Assembly (NCBI GenBank): GCA_017648805.1
Contig: JAGCIC010000072.1
Span: 1 to 11,200, forward strand
Reading direction: 5' to 3'
Length of the DNA stretch: 11,200 bases
Origin: Clostridia bacterium
GTDB lineage: Bacteria > Bacillota_A > Clostridia > Christensenellales > Aristaeellaceae
Under the pieces are notes generated by a model that did not search any database, had not been told where the DNA came from, and was given only the letters and a program-made list of their open reading frames with translations. Shown piece after piece: positions 1 to 4,099 of this stretch; within the stretch, counting starts at the first letter, position 1; each line of letters begins with the position of its first letter. The translations under genes and the position numbers were made by a program.

Positions 1-862
1 CGTTGCCGAAGGTGCCGGAAGAGAGGAAATAATCCAGCATCTCCTTTTCTTCCCCCGCGGGCTCTCCGCCGTCAAACAGGCTGAGCGCCAGGGCGCGGTT
101 CCGCTTTTCGAAGCCGTCTATGCCCAGCTTCTCCGTCTGCGCGGCCACATAGTCCATGTCGGGCGCGTTGCGCTTAAGGAACACATAGGTGTCCAGCAGG
201 GAGCGCAGCCCCGTGCCCTCCTCGGAATAGTGCTTGTGTTCGTGGGCGGTCAGGTACACGTAGCAGTCCTCGGGAGTGAAGCGTTTTTCGCAGCCTTCGC
301 CTATAAGGCGCTTTCGCACGTCCTTATAATACTCGCACAGCGCCTCCCCCTGGGCGAGCTTGAACAGCGCGCGGTGCATTTCGAATTTCAGGAACGGCGG
401 CTTGACGTACACGTCGTGGTTGCTCACGGCGTAATGCTCGGCGGTGTAGCCCAGCTTTTCCATTATGCTCTTTACGTCCGCCGCCCGCGTTTCGTCGATC
501 AGCACGTCGTGGTCGGAGAACTCCCGCATGCCGAACACGGGGTACAGGTCCTGAAGATACGCGCCCTTAAGGGGCAGGTACCAGATGCCTTCCGCCTCCA
601 GATGCTGCTTTATGCCCGCCAGCGCCGCCCTGAACAGCACCGCCTTACGCTGGGAGGAAGCTATGGCGTCCTTTATCCGCGCGTCCATGATGCCCGCGCT
701 TTGAAGGGCGAACGCCGCCGCCGCGGTGACCATATGTCCCTTGGCGAAAGCGAACACCCGGTCAAGATCCATGCCTGCGGCCCTCTCTTTGTCCGGCGCC
801 TGCCCGTTCACGGCGCATGAGAGCAGGTATATCACGTCCCGCGCGGTCCTGCCGTCGGTCAC
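1..862 (-). CDS. Nucleotidyltransferase-family protein (PF14907-like), C-terminus cut by window edge
   Basis: 287 residues are visible and the frame is open to the left edge. It resembles the uncharacterised nucleotidyltransferase family (PF14907) that accompanies PqqD, HprK-like kinases and S26 peptidases in many peptide clusters. Evidence: an N-terminal VIYLLSCAVNG helix (10-20), the catalytic-core WYLPLKGAYLQDLY (94-107), FSDHDVLIDE with the Asp117/Asp119 metal pair (115-124), FEMHRAL (160-166), and HEHKHYSEEGTGLRSLLDTY (207-226). The GTG start at 862 forms a GTGA overlap with the peptidase stop; an in-frame TGA at 871 rules out anything further upstream. AAGGAG overlaps this GTG, so a GTG at 835 or an ATG 30 codons later are alternatives, but the conserved N-terminal helix favours 862. 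It may add a nucleotide or sugar-phosphate to the kinase product; in lasso pathways such as pseudomycoidin a related protein works with the kinase. Confidence 0.78.
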   Translation of the reverse strand, partial: MTDGRTARDVIYLLSCAVNGQAPDKERAAGMDLDRVFAFAKGHMVTAAAAFALQSAGIMDARIKDAIASSQRKAVLFRAALAGIKQHLEAEGIWYLPLKGAYLQDLYPVFGMREFSDHDVLIDETRAADVKSIMEKLGYTAEHYAVSNHDVYVKPPFLKFEMHRALFKLAQGEALCEYYKDVRKRLIGEGCEKRFTPEDCYVYLTAHEHKHYSEEGTGLRSLLDTYVFLKRNAPDMDYVAAQTEKLGIDGFEKRNRALALSLFDGGEPAGEEKEMLDYFLSSGTFGN

Positions 863-1305
863 TCCTTGTCACCCCGCCTTCCGAATGCCCGCCCGAGTCT
901 GCGGGAAAGGAACCTTCTCAGCCTGCGCCAAAAGTACCTTATCGGGAAGATGAAGTGCCACGCCCGCGCGTACAGCCGGTAGAGCCTGCCGTCGGCGGAA
1001 TACTGTTTTCCCCTGCGCATGAAGCCCGTGAGCACGCCCAGCACGTCCCCGTCGGGAACGCTCTCGGTCTTAAAGGTGTTGTCGCCGCGGATAAGGTAGC
1101 CTTCGGGCAGCACCTTTATCACACGGTGGGCCACGCAGTCCTTCCCCCGCCGGTACAGCGCCACGTCGTATTTTTTGAGACGCGAAGACGGGACCCTGAT
1201 GGTCACCAGGTCCCGGTTCTGGCGGAGCATGGGCTCCATGCTGGTGCCCCGGGTGCGGTACACCAGCACCCCGTCCCGGGCGAGCACTTCCTCGATCGAG
1301 CTCAT
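859..1305 (-). CDS. S24/S26-family (signal peptidase-like) serine peptidase
   Basis: A 148-aa signal-peptidase-like protein of the kind often found in RiPP clusters, a candidate for leader removal. The nucleophile Ser22 lies in RGTSMEPML (19-27). The second catalytic site is AHRVI with His60 rather than the Lys of bacterial type I signal peptidases, like the Ser-His (SipW/Sec11-type) group. YLIRGDN follows as the third conserved block. There is no N-terminal membrane anchor; the C-terminal third (from about residue 108) is aromatic and highly Arg-rich, which might bind membrane or peptide. It starts in an ATGA overlap with PqqD and ends in a GTGA overlap with the next gene. An A-x-A at residues 22-24 of both precursors matches the usual small-residue preference of this peptidase group. 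Confidence 0.82.
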   Translation of the reverse strand: MSSIEEVLARDGVLVYRTRGTSMEPMLRQNRDLVTIRVPSSRLKKYDVALYRRGKDCVAHRVIKVLPEGYLIRGDNTFKTESVPDGDVLGVLTGFMRRGKQYSADGRLYRLYARAWHFIFPIRYFWRRLRRFLSRRLGRAFGRRGDKE

Positions 1306-1562
1306 TCGGAGAGCGCGTTTATGCGGCGCAGGGTGTCAAGTATCTCCCTGACGTCTTCGGCCACGGTCTCACGGGGCGCGTCGTACTCGGCGCACACGGC
1401 GTCTATTATGTTTTCCTCGGTGGTCTCCTGTTTAAGGCAGTTCACTATGAACGCCGCGGTCTCGTTGCCCCGGGCGATGCCCCGGAACGCCTCCGCGCCC
1501 ATGGGCACCAGGAACTGGGTGTCCTCTATATCCTGGGTGATGAAATCGGGATTGAGTTTCAT
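1302..1562 (-). CDS. PqqD-family RiPP recognition protein
   Basis: An 86-aa PqqD-like protein, the winged-helix RiPP recognition element that binds a leader peptide as an extra beta strand and presents it to a radical SAM enzyme. The pattern fits: an N-terminal strand pair (FITQDIEDTQFLVPMGAEAF), a central helix with NETAAFIVNCLKQETTEENI (33-52) and a C-terminal helix EDVREILDTLRRINAL, matching the family's usual 80-100 aa. The ATG at 1562 has AGGAGA upstream and lies 11 nt after the maturase stop; its own stop overlaps the peptidase start (ATGA). Its partner is likely the KPVLEVVEI stretch of the shared leader. Confidence 0.88.
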   Translation of the reverse strand: MKLNPDFITQDIEDTQFLVPMGAEAFRGIARGNETAAFIVNCLKQETTEENIIDAVCAEYDAPRETVAEDVREILDTLRRINALSE

Positions 1563-1573
1563 ACATGTCTCCT

Positions 1574-2887
1574 TCAGCAGTCCGGCTGCTCCGCCGCGTC
1601 GCCGCCGGCGTCGTCTATTATGTCCTCAAGCGCCGCCAGGGTCAGCATCCGCATCACTTCCCGGCAGTGGGCGTCGGTTATGGGACAGGCGGCAAAGCTC
1701 GTGCAGTGGGGCAGAAACGGGCAGGTCAGGCACTTTTCGCGGGTCGCGTCCGCGCGGCAGAACTTAAAGCGGGCGTTTTCGTCCGTCACGCCCCTGAAAA
1801 TGTCCCCGAAGCGCGCCTGAGGGGGACAGTGCTCGCAGGGGTACAGGCTGCCGTCCGGGCCTATCACCGCGGCGCCCGAGTCCGCCATGCAGTGGAACAC
1901 GCGGAACCTGCCGGCGTACGCGCCCGTGCCCGTGGTCCTGAAGCCGGCGGAGATTACTGTCTGCCTGGCGTCAAGTATCTTTTGATACAGTTCCAGGTCC
2001 CCGCCGCTTTCGCGCGCCTGGAACAGGGGCGCGAAGTAGATGGTCACGTTGCGCTTGTTTCTGACGCGCCGTTCCATGTCGTTAAGGAACTCGGGGATAT
2101 TGGCCCAGTTGTCCCCGTCCACGTTGCAGCGCACCGTCACGCGTATGCCCGCGCCCGCCATGGCGTCCACGCCCGCGATCACCTTAAAGTATGCGCCATC
2201 GCATGCGAAATAGTTCTTGCGGGGGATGTAGTCCTTTTCCGCGCCGTCCATGGAGATCTGCAGCGACTCCAGGCGCCACTCCCCCGCCATTTTACCTACG
2301 ATATCCGGAGTGACCAGGCTGCCGTTGGACACCATTTTGCAGCGGTAATCCGCGCCCGCCGCCTTGAGCCCCGCGCACACCCGGTCGATTATGTCCGGGC
2401 GCAAAAGCGGCTCCCCGCCGAACCAGTTGATCTCCGCCCTGCCCTCGGCGCGGTTGTCCAGTATGAACCTGACCGTCTGCCTGACCGTGTCGTCCGTCAT
2501 GGACACGGGCTTTACGCCCTCCTCGTAGCAGTACACGCAGCGGGCGTTGCAGGCGGTGGTGGGCAGCACGGTAAAATAGCGGTAGCCCTTCTTCGCGCTG
2601 TAGGCGCGCATCACCGAGGAGACGCCGTTGTAGAACGCGGTCTCGTCCCGCCCCTCGGGCACCAGGAACATGCCTTCGATCAGTTCGTCAAACCCCTCCC
2701 CCGCCTTCGCGGACGCGGGCAGACTGCCCCGTATCAGCTGCTTGGTCAGGGTGTTGAACACGTACTGCCCGGACTTATGCCCGAATGTGAGGGTGAACCG
2801 GCTCGGGACGTAGGTCTCCCCCTCCCGGGGCACCGCCCGGGGCAGCGTCTTCATGAGCGCCTGGTCCGGCTTGCGTATCTCGGTCAC
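1574..2887 (-). CDS. Radical SAM/SPASM peptide maturase
   Basis: A 437-aa enzyme expected to install cross-links in the two precursor peptides using S-adenosylmethionine radical chemistry. The radical SAM cluster motif is C113-x3-C117-x2-C120 in the CNARCVYCYE stretch, followed by WFGGEPLL (155-162, SAM-binding GGE) and SNGSLVTPDIV (187-197). A C-terminal SPASM domain for extra iron-sulfur clusters is shown by Cys333, GPDGSLYPCEHC (343-354), Cys377, CLTCPFLPHC (386-395), Cys401 and Cys408. The first ~105 residues are a variable N-terminal region with no clear recognition domain, consistent with the separate PqqD protein doing the leader binding. The GTG start at 2887 has GGAGGA five bases upstream. 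A gap of 11 nt leads to the PqqD gene. Thioether formation is inferred from Cys-rich substrates; carbon-carbon links are an alternative. Confidence 0.93.
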   Translation of the reverse strand: MTEIRKPDQALMKTLPRAVPREGETYVPSRFTLTFGHKSGQYVFNTLTKQLIRGSLPASAKAGEGFDELIEGMFLVPEGRDETAFYNGVSSVMRAYSAKKGYRYFTVLPTTACNARCVYCYEEGVKPVSMTDDTVRQTVRFILDNRAEGRAEINWFGGEPLLRPDIIDRVCAGLKAAGADYRCKMVSNGSLVTPDIVGKMAGEWRLESLQISMDGAEKDYIPRKNYFACDGAYFKVIAGVDAMAGAGIRVTVRCNVDGDNWANIPEFLNDMERRVRNKRNVTIYFAPLFQARESGGDLELYQKILDARQTVISAGFRTTGTGAYAGRFRVFHCMADSGAAVIGPDGSLYPCEHCPPQARFGDIFRGVTDENARFKFCRADATREKCLTCPFLPHCTSFAACPITDAHCREVMRMLTLAALEDIIDDAGGDAAEQPDC

Positions 2888-2909: not shown

Positions 2910-2939
2910 TTGCGGCGCACAGACAGCTGTGCGCCGCAA
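2910..2939 (-). promoter_or_regulatory. 13-bp perfect hairpin between precursors and maturase gene
   Basis: On the minus strand the arms TTGCGGCGCACAG and CTGTGCGCCGCAA pair perfectly around a 4-nt loop (CTGT). It begins 18 nt after the precursor B stop and ends 22 nt before the radical SAM start. No U-run follows, so it is more likely an mRNA-stabilising or partial read-through element than a full terminator. Such a structure would keep short precursor transcripts abundant over the maturase message, a common need in RiPP operons. Confidence 0.65.
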
Positions 2940-2957: not shown

Positions 2958-3116
2958 TTACTTCGCGGGGAAATCCTGGCACTCGGCGTAATCCGGGCAG
3001 ATGGTGAGATCCTGGCACACGGCGGTATCGTTGTCCACGCCGCTGGCGCAGGCGGACAGGATGGCGTCGTTCTCGATCTCTACGACTTCCAGCACGGGCT
3101 TCACATACTTCTTCAT
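2958..3116 (-). CDS. RiPP precursor peptide B, paralogue with diverged Cys/Asp core (52 aa)
   Basis: Tandem paralogue of precursor A. Residues 1-32 are identical to A, while the core reads VCQDLTICPDYAECQDFPAK (33-52). Cys34, Cys40, Cys46 and Asp36, Asp42, Asp48 are kept at the same positions, whereas every other aligned core position from 33 to 50 differs. That contrast marks the Cys/Asp set as the chemically needed residues and the rest as free to vary. The ATG at 3116 has AAAGGAG nine bases upstream. It is followed by a 70-nt gap holding a strong hairpin and then the radical SAM maturase gene. The shared leader implies that the same maturase, PqqD and peptidase act on both peptides, possibly yielding a two-peptide product or variants of one activity. 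Confidence 0.9.
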   Translation of the reverse strand: MKKYVKPVLEVVEIENDAILSACASGVDNDTAVCQDLTICPDYAECQDFPAK

Positions 3117-3302
3117 AAGCGTTTTCTCCTTTATAAAACCGGCCTTAAATCAAGCTAAGTCGTTGCACGGGGGGAAATCCGCGCACTCGGGGTTGTCTTC
3201 GCACAGGGCGGTATCGTTGTCCACGCCGCTGGCGCAGGCGGACAGGATGGCGTCGTTCTCTATCTCGACGACCTCCAGCACGGGCTTTACGTATTTCTTC
3301 AT
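3021..3302 (-). repeat. Tandem 96-bp direct repeat: duplicated precursor leader
   Basis: Copies at 3021-3116 and 3207-3302, offset 186 nt, encode residues 1-32 of precursors B and A. They differ at six bases, all at third codon positions and all silent (codons 3, 4, 5, 10, 12, 14); the 54 bases for codons 15-32 are identical. The repeat records a gene duplication followed by core divergence. Confidence 0.93.
3150..3302 (-). CDS. RiPP precursor peptide A, Cys/Asp hexad core (50 aa)
   Basis: A small precursor of a ribosomally made, modified peptide. Residues 1-32 form a leader-like part beginning MKKYVKPVLEVVEIEN, a beta-strand-prone KPVLEVVEI stretch of the sort bound by PqqD-type recognition proteins, then DAILSACASGVDNDTA. 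The core follows: LCEDNPECADFPPCNDLA (33-50). Cysteines are at 23, 34, 40 and 46 and aspartates at 28, 30, 36, 42 and 48, so each of the last three Cys has Asp at -4 and at +2 in an exact 6-residue period. An A-x-A sequence at 22-24 could be the cut site for the S26-type peptidase of the cluster. The start is set by the strong ribosome site at 3312-3318. It sits 50 nt after the kinase gene and 33 nt before its paralogue. Function (antimicrobial, signalling, metal-binding) cannot be read from the sequence. Confidence 0.9.
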   Translation of the reverse strand: MKKYVKPVLEVVEIENDAILSACASGVDNDTALCEDNPECADFPPCNDLA

Positions 3303-3352: not shown

Positions 3353-4099
3353 TCAGCCGGGATATTCCCCGTTCATGCCCCGGTATGCGGTCAGCGCCGC
3401 GTCCGGGTCCATGTTGCAGAAAAGGCGGCAGAACTCCGCTTTGCCGAGCAGTTCCGCTTCCAGCCGGGACACCTTAAGGCGGTTCGCTGGCGCGTCGGAC
3501 ACGTAGCAGTGACGGATCAGCAGCGCGTAGGCATCGGCCTTTTTAAGGGGCTCCACGCGGTTGTCCCTGCCGCGTTCCAGCTGCGCTACGGCCCTGAGGG
3601 GCGCGGAGGCGTTGCGGCTCAAGTGATGCTTGCCGTCCCAGGGAGAGCCGTACACTTTTGCCCCGTCATCAAGCACCCTTATCAGGGGCTTGTCGTCGTT
3701 TATCATCCACACCCGGTCCCCGAAGGCTTCCCGCCACAGGCGGGCGTGGGTGCTTTTGCCGGTACCGCTTAAGGCGGTGAACACATACGCCCGTCCGTCC
3801 ATGCACAGCGCCGAGCCGTGCATCTGCAGCACCCCGAAGTTCGCCAGATTTACCGCGGTCTGCGTATATATCGCGCTGTTCTCCAGGAAGACGCCGCCCC
3901 TGGGCTGAGGGGCAAACCCCCTTTTCGCGTCCCGCCTGACGAAGGCGGCCCATTCGGCCTCCAGGTCCGCGTCGGTGGGACTCAGGGTGAACAGCGGCGC
4001 TTTTTCGCTCAGGTAGTCCTTAAAAAACTCCCTGTTCTCCGGATGCCGGCAGACTATCCTGAACGGAACATCCGCGAGCTCAACGCAAAAGTCCTCCAC
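3353..4099 (-). CDS. HPr-kinase-like (HprK-related) kinase of a RiPP cluster
   Basis: A 248-aa protein resembling the C-terminal catalytic domain of HPr Ser kinase/phosphatase, a P-loop fold. Such stand-alone homologues recur in RiPP clusters; in the lasso peptide paeninodin, a related kinase phosphorylates a C-terminal Ser of the precursor. Motifs: MHGSALCMDGRAYVF (93-107), Walker A SGTGKSTH (111-118), a Walker B-like MINDDKPLI (132-140) with the acidic pair Asp135-Asp136, and GSPWDGKHHLSRN (151-163). The start is GTG 4099, backed by AAGGAG six bases upstream. It is the first gene of the RiPP operon and lies 50 nt before the first precursor gene. Here the precursors lack a C-terminal Ser, so the target may be Ser25/Thr31 of the precursor or something else. 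Kinase fold confident; substrate inferred. Confidence 0.8.
   Translation of the reverse strand: MEDFCVELADVPFRIVCRHPENREFFKDYLSEKAPLFTLSPTDADLEAEWAAFVRRDAKRGFAPQPRGGVFLENSAIYTQTAVNLANFGVLQMHGSALCMDGRAYVFTALSGTGKSTHARLWREAFGDRVWMINDDKPLIRVLDDGAKVYGSPWDGKHHLSRNASAPLRAVAQLERGRDNRVEPLKKADAYALLIRHCYVSDAPANRLKVSRLEAELLGKAEFCRLFCNMDPDAALTAYRGMNGEYPG

Follow-up and report, generated by a model that had tools for sequence, protein, structure and literature searches.

Thioether links from cysteine to acidic residues have already been described. PapB forms them with Asp and Glu; it accepts C-Xn-D substrates with n = 0–6 and seemingly processes those with n = 1–5 completely in vitro (PMC9413430). In freyrasin the Cys-Asp links are of the S-Cβ type. 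QhpD makes S-Cβ links between Cys and Asp and S-Cγ links between Cys and Glu (PMC11002830), while in NxxcA Cys23 is joined to Asn20, i.e., the acceptor stands ahead of the cysteine (PMC8326336). Lasso peptides enter the picture by their leaders and partners. A YxxPxL motif is reported in their precursors (PMC10368454), the B1 protein of paeninodin, of a kind often annotated as a PqqD homologue, binds the leader with nanomolar affinity (PMC5067487), and lasso clusters from the rumen can include genes for HPr kinases and nucleotidyltransferases (PMC7533575). We here deal with an operon in a stretch of 11,200 nucleotides, the window (positions 1 to 11,200 of contig JAGCIC010000072.1, forward strand, assembly GCA_017648805.1, from a Clostridia bacterium of the Aristaeellaceae). 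It contains two tandem genes for small precursor peptides and would combine a radical thioether-type enzyme with leader recognition and accessory genes of the lasso type.

The genes lie on the minus strand, as do all window features given below with coordinates, in the order HPr-kinase-like protein, two precursors, radical S-adenosylmethionine (SAM)/SPASM maturase, PqqD protein, S26 peptidase and NTP_transf_5 nucleotidyltransferase. We consider it fairly probable that both small genes encode substrates of the maturase, which would be of the ranthipeptide type and form Cys-to-Asp/Glu thioethers upon lasso-type recognition of the leader. Precursor A (MKKYVKPVLEVVEIENDAILSACASGVDNDTAVCQDLTICPDYAECQDFPAK; 2958..3116) has 52 amino acids. 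Precursor B (MKKYVKPVLEVVEIENDAILSACASGVDNDTALCEDNPECADFPPCNDLA; 3150..3302), the first of the two tandem copies, has 50, if counted from the MKKY start. A Shine-Dalgarno-like sequence is found 5' of each open reading frame (ORF), that of copy B being the ribosome-binding-site-like TAAGGAGG.

A codon comparison of the two copies is informative. Residues 1–32 form the same protein, with six synonymous and no non-synonymous differences. Over residues 33–50, 12 of the 18 positions differ, and those kept are exactly C34, D36, C40, D42, C46 and D48. Both the two ORFs and this pattern had been pointed out in a first-pass annotation, and both stand. The resulting array, C34-x-D36, C40-x-D42, C46-x-D48, spans 2973..3017 in copy A and 3159..3203 in copy B. 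Its Asp codons 36 and 48 differ synonymously between the copies, which argues that the protein is kept here, not the DNA. The chance that six kept positions among 18 fall on exactly these six is 1 in 18,564, and when the two cores were shuffled 200,000 times, a C.D...C.D...C.D array turned up 0 and 3 times, respectively. Because of the codon pattern, the placement odds and the shuffles, the genes look real, the leader appears to be under purifying selection and the core seems to have diversified around a fixed Cys/Asp frame. Each peptide has four Cys, Cys23 included (codons at 3048..3050 in copy A and 3234..3236 in copy B).

A homologue search of 5.8 billion proteins yielded 12 proteins at E ≤ 10, copy B of the window among them, and a profile search 13 at E ≤ 1. 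The near set considered here comprises 14 distinct peptides: the two of the window, three tandem copies of locus L001 and nine from the database searches. L001 holds the nearest maturase (65% identity) and belongs to a Clostridia metagenome-assembled genome (MAG) obtained from the reticulum of a water buffalo; its precursors carry C-x-E units. This origin and the names of homologous peptides suggest that the window probably stems from a gut bacterium. When 396 genomes sampled from the order to which L001's genome belongs were searched at E ≤ 0.001, the near family turned up in one, L001's own. Across the near peptides the leader is nearly frozen, and so is the stretch LSACASGVDNDT, in which P0013 has T for V; Y4 and P7 are invariant in all 13 aligned peptides, and position 9 is L or M.

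Among 35 array Cys, the residue two places behind is Glu 19 times, Asp 14 times and Ala twice. It is acidic in 33 of the 35 cases, so that the Cys donors and their putative side-chain acceptors keep a constant distance. As far as the alignments tell, the repeat unit is C-x-[D/E], with Glu allowed beside Asp, and not D-x3-C. The strict Asp of the first-pass annotation holds for the window pair but not for the 14 near peptides, and a strict-Asp rule is out, since Glu accounts for more than half of the positions. Homologues in which Asp varies freely while Cys stays, which would have spoken against that annotation, are not seen at this largely acidic position. Its broader claim, precursors typical of ribosomally synthesised and post-translationally modified peptides (RiPPs) beside radical SAM-SPASM and PqqD proteins, with Cys and acidic residues conserved together, is supported.

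Cys23 deserves separate mention. All 13 aligned near peptides have it, the five of the window and L001 by construction, since these were selected for the motif SACASG; it also occurs in P0013. In 24 hand-chosen peptides of the wider family, the first core Cys occupies one column just past the leader, at the place of Cys23. For these two reasons Cys23 is assigned to the core, which it probably starts, and up to four rings per window peptide therefore become possible. Behind it the near peptides have two or three Cys, P0001 four. The three identical rings once foreseen are not a rule: relatives hold two or three units, and Cys23 had been left uncounted.

The maturase (1574..2887) shows the CxxxCxxC motif and seven Cys in the SPASM region, the pattern expected of a ranthipeptide enzyme. 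A maturase search led to 61 loci, by their titles mostly ruminant-gut Clostridia MAGs; the window and 37 of them, chosen by us, made up the set for the tree, which was rooted at the midpoint, and for the fold. Invariant in these 38 maturases are C112, C116 and C119 as well as C332, C350, C385, C388, C394, C400 and C407. The Pfam SPASM model scores 17.6 bits on the window protein, below its cut-off of 21.5. The predicted structure (predicted local distance difference test, pLDDT, 89) finds its best match in 5wgg/5why; 5wgg is CteB, a ranthipeptide synthase, with about 15% identity to the window maturase over the fold alignment. In the maximum-likelihood tree the window groups with L001 (support 100/100), and this clade falls within a supported group of 16 rows of the family (97/89).

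The wider family shares the leader, with the consensus Y-x-x-P-x-[L/M]-E-V-[I/V]...D-[V/I]-I-x-x-S and, in most peptides seen, a Cys soon after. Leader matches weaker than E 1e-4 were removed, while 62 rows from 46 of 62 sources were kept; the distinct peptides number 57 in the wide family and 14 in the near one, the former having been rid of identical copies only. The wide-family cores are hypervariable. At Cys+3 an acid is strongly enriched, in 59 of 142 cases versus 26.8 expected, a value reached in none of 5000 shuffles. A later-found set behaves alike (41 of 101, 17.6 expected, again 0 of 5000). It was taken from the best 120 of 499 proteins, of which 9 badly parsed, 1 Cys-less, 16 resembling the first set and 47 mutually alike were dropped and 47 kept; this repeat replaces an earlier version with 62 peptides that held badly parsed cores. 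At Cys+2 the wide family is below expectation (15/145 with 27.2 expected; 12/101 with 17.7 expected). Weaker signals at -3 in the first and at -4 in the second set do not recur in the respective other one. Since the window clade is nested in a family with its acid at Cys+3, its C-x-[D/E] unit seems to have arisen from C-xx-[D/E] by contraction, the contracted clade being represented by two loci in the maturase tree.

Some cores of this wider family are conspicuous in their own right. The precursors of L035 and L043 consist of clean C-x-x-E-S-x repeats (CSAESTCTAESTCPAES; CTSESTCASES), the Glu counterpart of the C-x-x-D motif of the family. Those of L009, L011, L012, L050 and L019 end in C-[VTM]-[WI]-G-[DY] (CVWGD, CTWGD, CMWGD, CTIGD, CVWGYD), mostly C-x3-D. 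The L010 precursor carries CSDD, CAFD and CEWD. Two tandem cassettes of kinase-like, precursor, maturase and PqqD genes with differing cores are found in L017 and L034; in L034 the locus ends within the first kinase-like gene.

We infer bond, attacked carbon, ring number, cleavage site and a phosphate tag as follows. The PqqD protein, perhaps together with the N-terminal region of the maturase, would bind the leader at its Y-x-x-P-x-L motif. At each array Cys, the maturase would then remove a hydrogen from the side-chain carbon of the acidic residue at +2, and the Cys sulfur would be joined at that carbon, S-Cβ for Asp and S-Cγ for Glu. The product would be a series of tight thioether rings, one per C-x-[D/E] unit, which by our count have 10 members in the case of Asp. 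The predicted mass change per window peptide is -6 Da for three C-x-D units, or -8 Da if Cys23 also reacts. The S26 peptidase may cut around residues 21–24, and the HPr-kinase-like protein and the nucleotidyltransferase may put a phosphate-based tag on Ser or Thr. With tandem copies, a frozen leader and varied ring residues, one enzyme could make several products.

Two observations weigh against this reading. A core Cys is absent in 3 of the 57 wide-family precursors (L002, 3220-3339; L029, 2859-2975; one of L040, offset -1079 from the maturase); the maturase gene next to the Cys-free precursor of L029 is interrupted by an in-frame stop. Further, C40 of P0006 keeps the acid at -4 and loses that at +2, with an Asp at +3; the extra last Cys of P0001 likewise keeps -4 and loses +2.

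The Cys-free precursors would suit some other radical chemistry, such as α-carbon sactionine formation, epimerisation or decarboxylation of the acid, the Cys ending as thiols or disulfides. SPASM maturases are indeed chemically diverse, and anSME, TigE, SkfB and SuiB are among the further structural matches of the model. We regard such chemistry as unlikely: in near and wide families alike an acid stands at a fixed distance after Cys, which neither epimerisation nor disulfides need, and 5wgg remains the best structural match.

The behaviour of P0006 would rather suit the reverse order, D-x3-C, in which each Cys is joined to the acid four places ahead, as in streptococcal NxxcA (PMC8326336), where such an order exists. 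An acid is in fact found at -4 of 18 of the 21 non-first array Cys, and D30 ahead of C34 is invariant. The six-residue spacing of C-x-acid units, however, puts an acid at -4 automatically. Where the Cys-Cys spacing is 7, at four places, the two orders can be told apart: -4 is Asn or Thr in three of them, where Glu is found at +2, and the +2 acid is kept in all four. This favours C-x-[D/E] over D-x3-C, and the latter, broken in 3 of 21 cases with the +2 acid kept, was discarded as the unit. Thirteen of 14 peptides also keep the acid at +2 of their last Cys, though no further Cys follows. In the wide family an acid at -4 occurs in 17 of 101 cases (15.8 expected) in the first set and is weakly enriched, 16 of 59 (9.2 expected), in the second, in contrast to the +3 acid, which no shuffle equalled in either set. 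The first-pass annotation had left D-x3-C and C-x-D as an even choice; the choice is no longer even, the relatives tilting to C-x-[D/E], and we give the acceptor-first order little credence.

Cys/Asp arrays can bind metals, and the peptides might be metal ligands or unmodified, with the radical enzyme acting on something else. The operon order, the frozen YxxPxL leader and the leader-type peptides at 22 of 25 same-family loci with enough flank make this very improbable. A lasso peptide system with a radical SAM tailoring step is hardly credible in spite of the YxxPx[L/M] leader, a PqqD protein nearest to the lasso model, an HPr kinase and a nucleotidyltransferase as in rumen lasso clusters (PMC7533575) and weak matches of 3 of 24 wide-family precursors to the paeninodin model (best E 0.046), since Pfam scans of ten window proteins revealed neither a B2 peptidase nor a cyclase of the Asn-synthetase type (the latter was sought in these proteins alone) and PF13471, the B2 family, has matches at E ≤ 0.001 in 4 of 12 related genomes but exceeds its cut-off in one, within a 920-residue frame.

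The thioether proposal can be extended to a ring-size series on a lasso-type leader system: an ancestral C-xx-[D/E], 10/11-membered C-x-[D/E] rings in the window clade, an invariant fourth ring that links Cys23 with D28 or D30, and a phosphate tag set by the HPr-kinase-like and NTP_transf_5 proteins. As a whole this is tentative and rather doubtful. If it were true, comparison of maturases that are 50–65% identical could show what sets the ring size. If merely the bond is right, the C-x-[D/E] rings would be, to our knowledge, the tightest natural Cys-to-acid thioether rings. The wider family would then offer natural maturases with substrates of differing ring spacing, and the choice of ring size by ranthipeptide enzymes would become testable by swaps of homologous enzymes and cores. 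In the open-licence literature we found no paper that joins HPr kinase, PqqD, radical SAM and a precursor peptide, or ranthipeptides and HPr kinase, none on a RiPP recognition element (RRE) with radical SAM, nucleotidyltransferase, kinase and thioether, and none on CX2D, CXXD, CX1D or Cys-X-Asp, which is no proof of their absence in print.

The remaining genes can be dealt with briefly. The PqqD-family peptide chaperone (1302..1562; Pfam PF05402, 54.7 bits) is the probable leader-binding RRE; its best NCBIfam similarity is to the lasso-peptide PqqD family, below cut-off (39 of 70 bits). The S26 signal-peptidase-like protein (859..1305), a candidate leader peptidase, shows SMEP, HRVI and GDN boxes by eye and scores 22.3 bits with TIGR02228 (cut-off 51.85). 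Small residues mark the leader end of the precursors (LSACASG at residues 20–26; A-C-A, T-T-S, T-A-S); these would agree with the -3/-1 rule for cleavage by an S26 enzyme of the signal-peptidase type. The NTP_transf_5 nucleotidyltransferase (2..862; PF14907, 133.3 bits) runs off the window. The HPr-kinase-like protein (3353..4099), a candidate peptide kinase, owes its name to weak ScmC, PEPCK and HprK-related matches, all below cut-offs, and to a P-loop, SGTGKST, recognised by eye; toxin-named matches (E 0.025–0.086, 12–14 bits against cut-offs of 600–736) were taken as chance. Further upstream follow a cupin-like protein and then GH127 and fucosidase-type enzymes, with intervening sugar-metabolism genes recognised by eye.

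Gene content was counted at loci with at least 40% maturase identity and enough flank, a gene being accepted anywhere in the fetched locus. With the window included, 23 of 25 loci have a PqqD homologue, 22 a leader-type small peptide and 10 an HPrK-like homologue. S26 and NTP_transf_5 homologues are found in 10 and 8 of 19 loci, respectively, the window being left out here for too little flank. Being far from universal, the HPrK-like, S26 and NTP_transf_5 genes are considered accessory. Between copy A and the maturase gene lies a 13-bp stem-loop without T-run (2910..2939; z -3.05), the arms of which are also present in L001 (4758-4827); no terminator-like site was found. Such gaps fold with z below -3 in 11 of 26 examined (window, L001, L003, L005-L008, L021, L022, L032, L033). 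The stem-loop would fit a control of the precursor:enzyme ratio.

How does the locus compare with the known systems? SCIFF/thermocellin membership is out: the precursors match no NCBIfam family at E ≤ 0.1 (with TIGR03973, which we take to be the SCIFF model, assumed to be in the library), and they have four Cys, not six. A recent rumen survey uses TIGR03973 as its ranthipeptide rule (PMC13289728, Table 1). Because the window precursors match no NCBIfam model, a rule of this type would probably miss them. With lasso systems of the paeninodin type the locus shares the YxxPxL leader, a PqqD/B1-type chaperone (PF05402) and the HPr kinase and nucleotidyltransferase partners; here, however, radical SAM-SPASM and S26 proteins replace the macrolactam cyclase and the B2 protease, and the core is one of Cys and acids. 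Lasso membership was rejected on the PF13471 result.

Freyrasin (PapA/PapB) is similar in its radical SAM-SPASM maturase and its rows of spaced Cys and Asp/Glu with the Cys first. It differs by its natural C-x3-D spacing, as against C-x-[D/E] here, and separate PqqD, S26, HPrK-like and NTP_transf_5 genes mark the window locus; the window maturase scores 103 bits with the PapB model NF047865 (cut-off 340) and thus falls outside that family. With the QhpD model TIGR03906 it reaches 59 bits, also below cut-off. The target of QhpD is a subunit of an enzyme, quinohemoprotein amine dehydrogenase, and its link spacings are longer, in contrast to the tandem short rings proposed here. NxxcA/NxxcB has in common with the proposed chemistry a short-range thioether from Cys to a side-chain carbon and a radical SAM enzyme with SPASM domain (PMC8326336); it differs by its single link, its Asn acceptor and the acceptor-first order. 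The new subclass of the first-pass annotation is, in the strong sense, too much: PapB already takes C-X1-D among its C-Xn-D substrates (PMC9413430), and other distances between Cys and acid are found in the wider family. For these reasons the window system is best read as a new variant of ranthipeptide-like systems, not as a new class.
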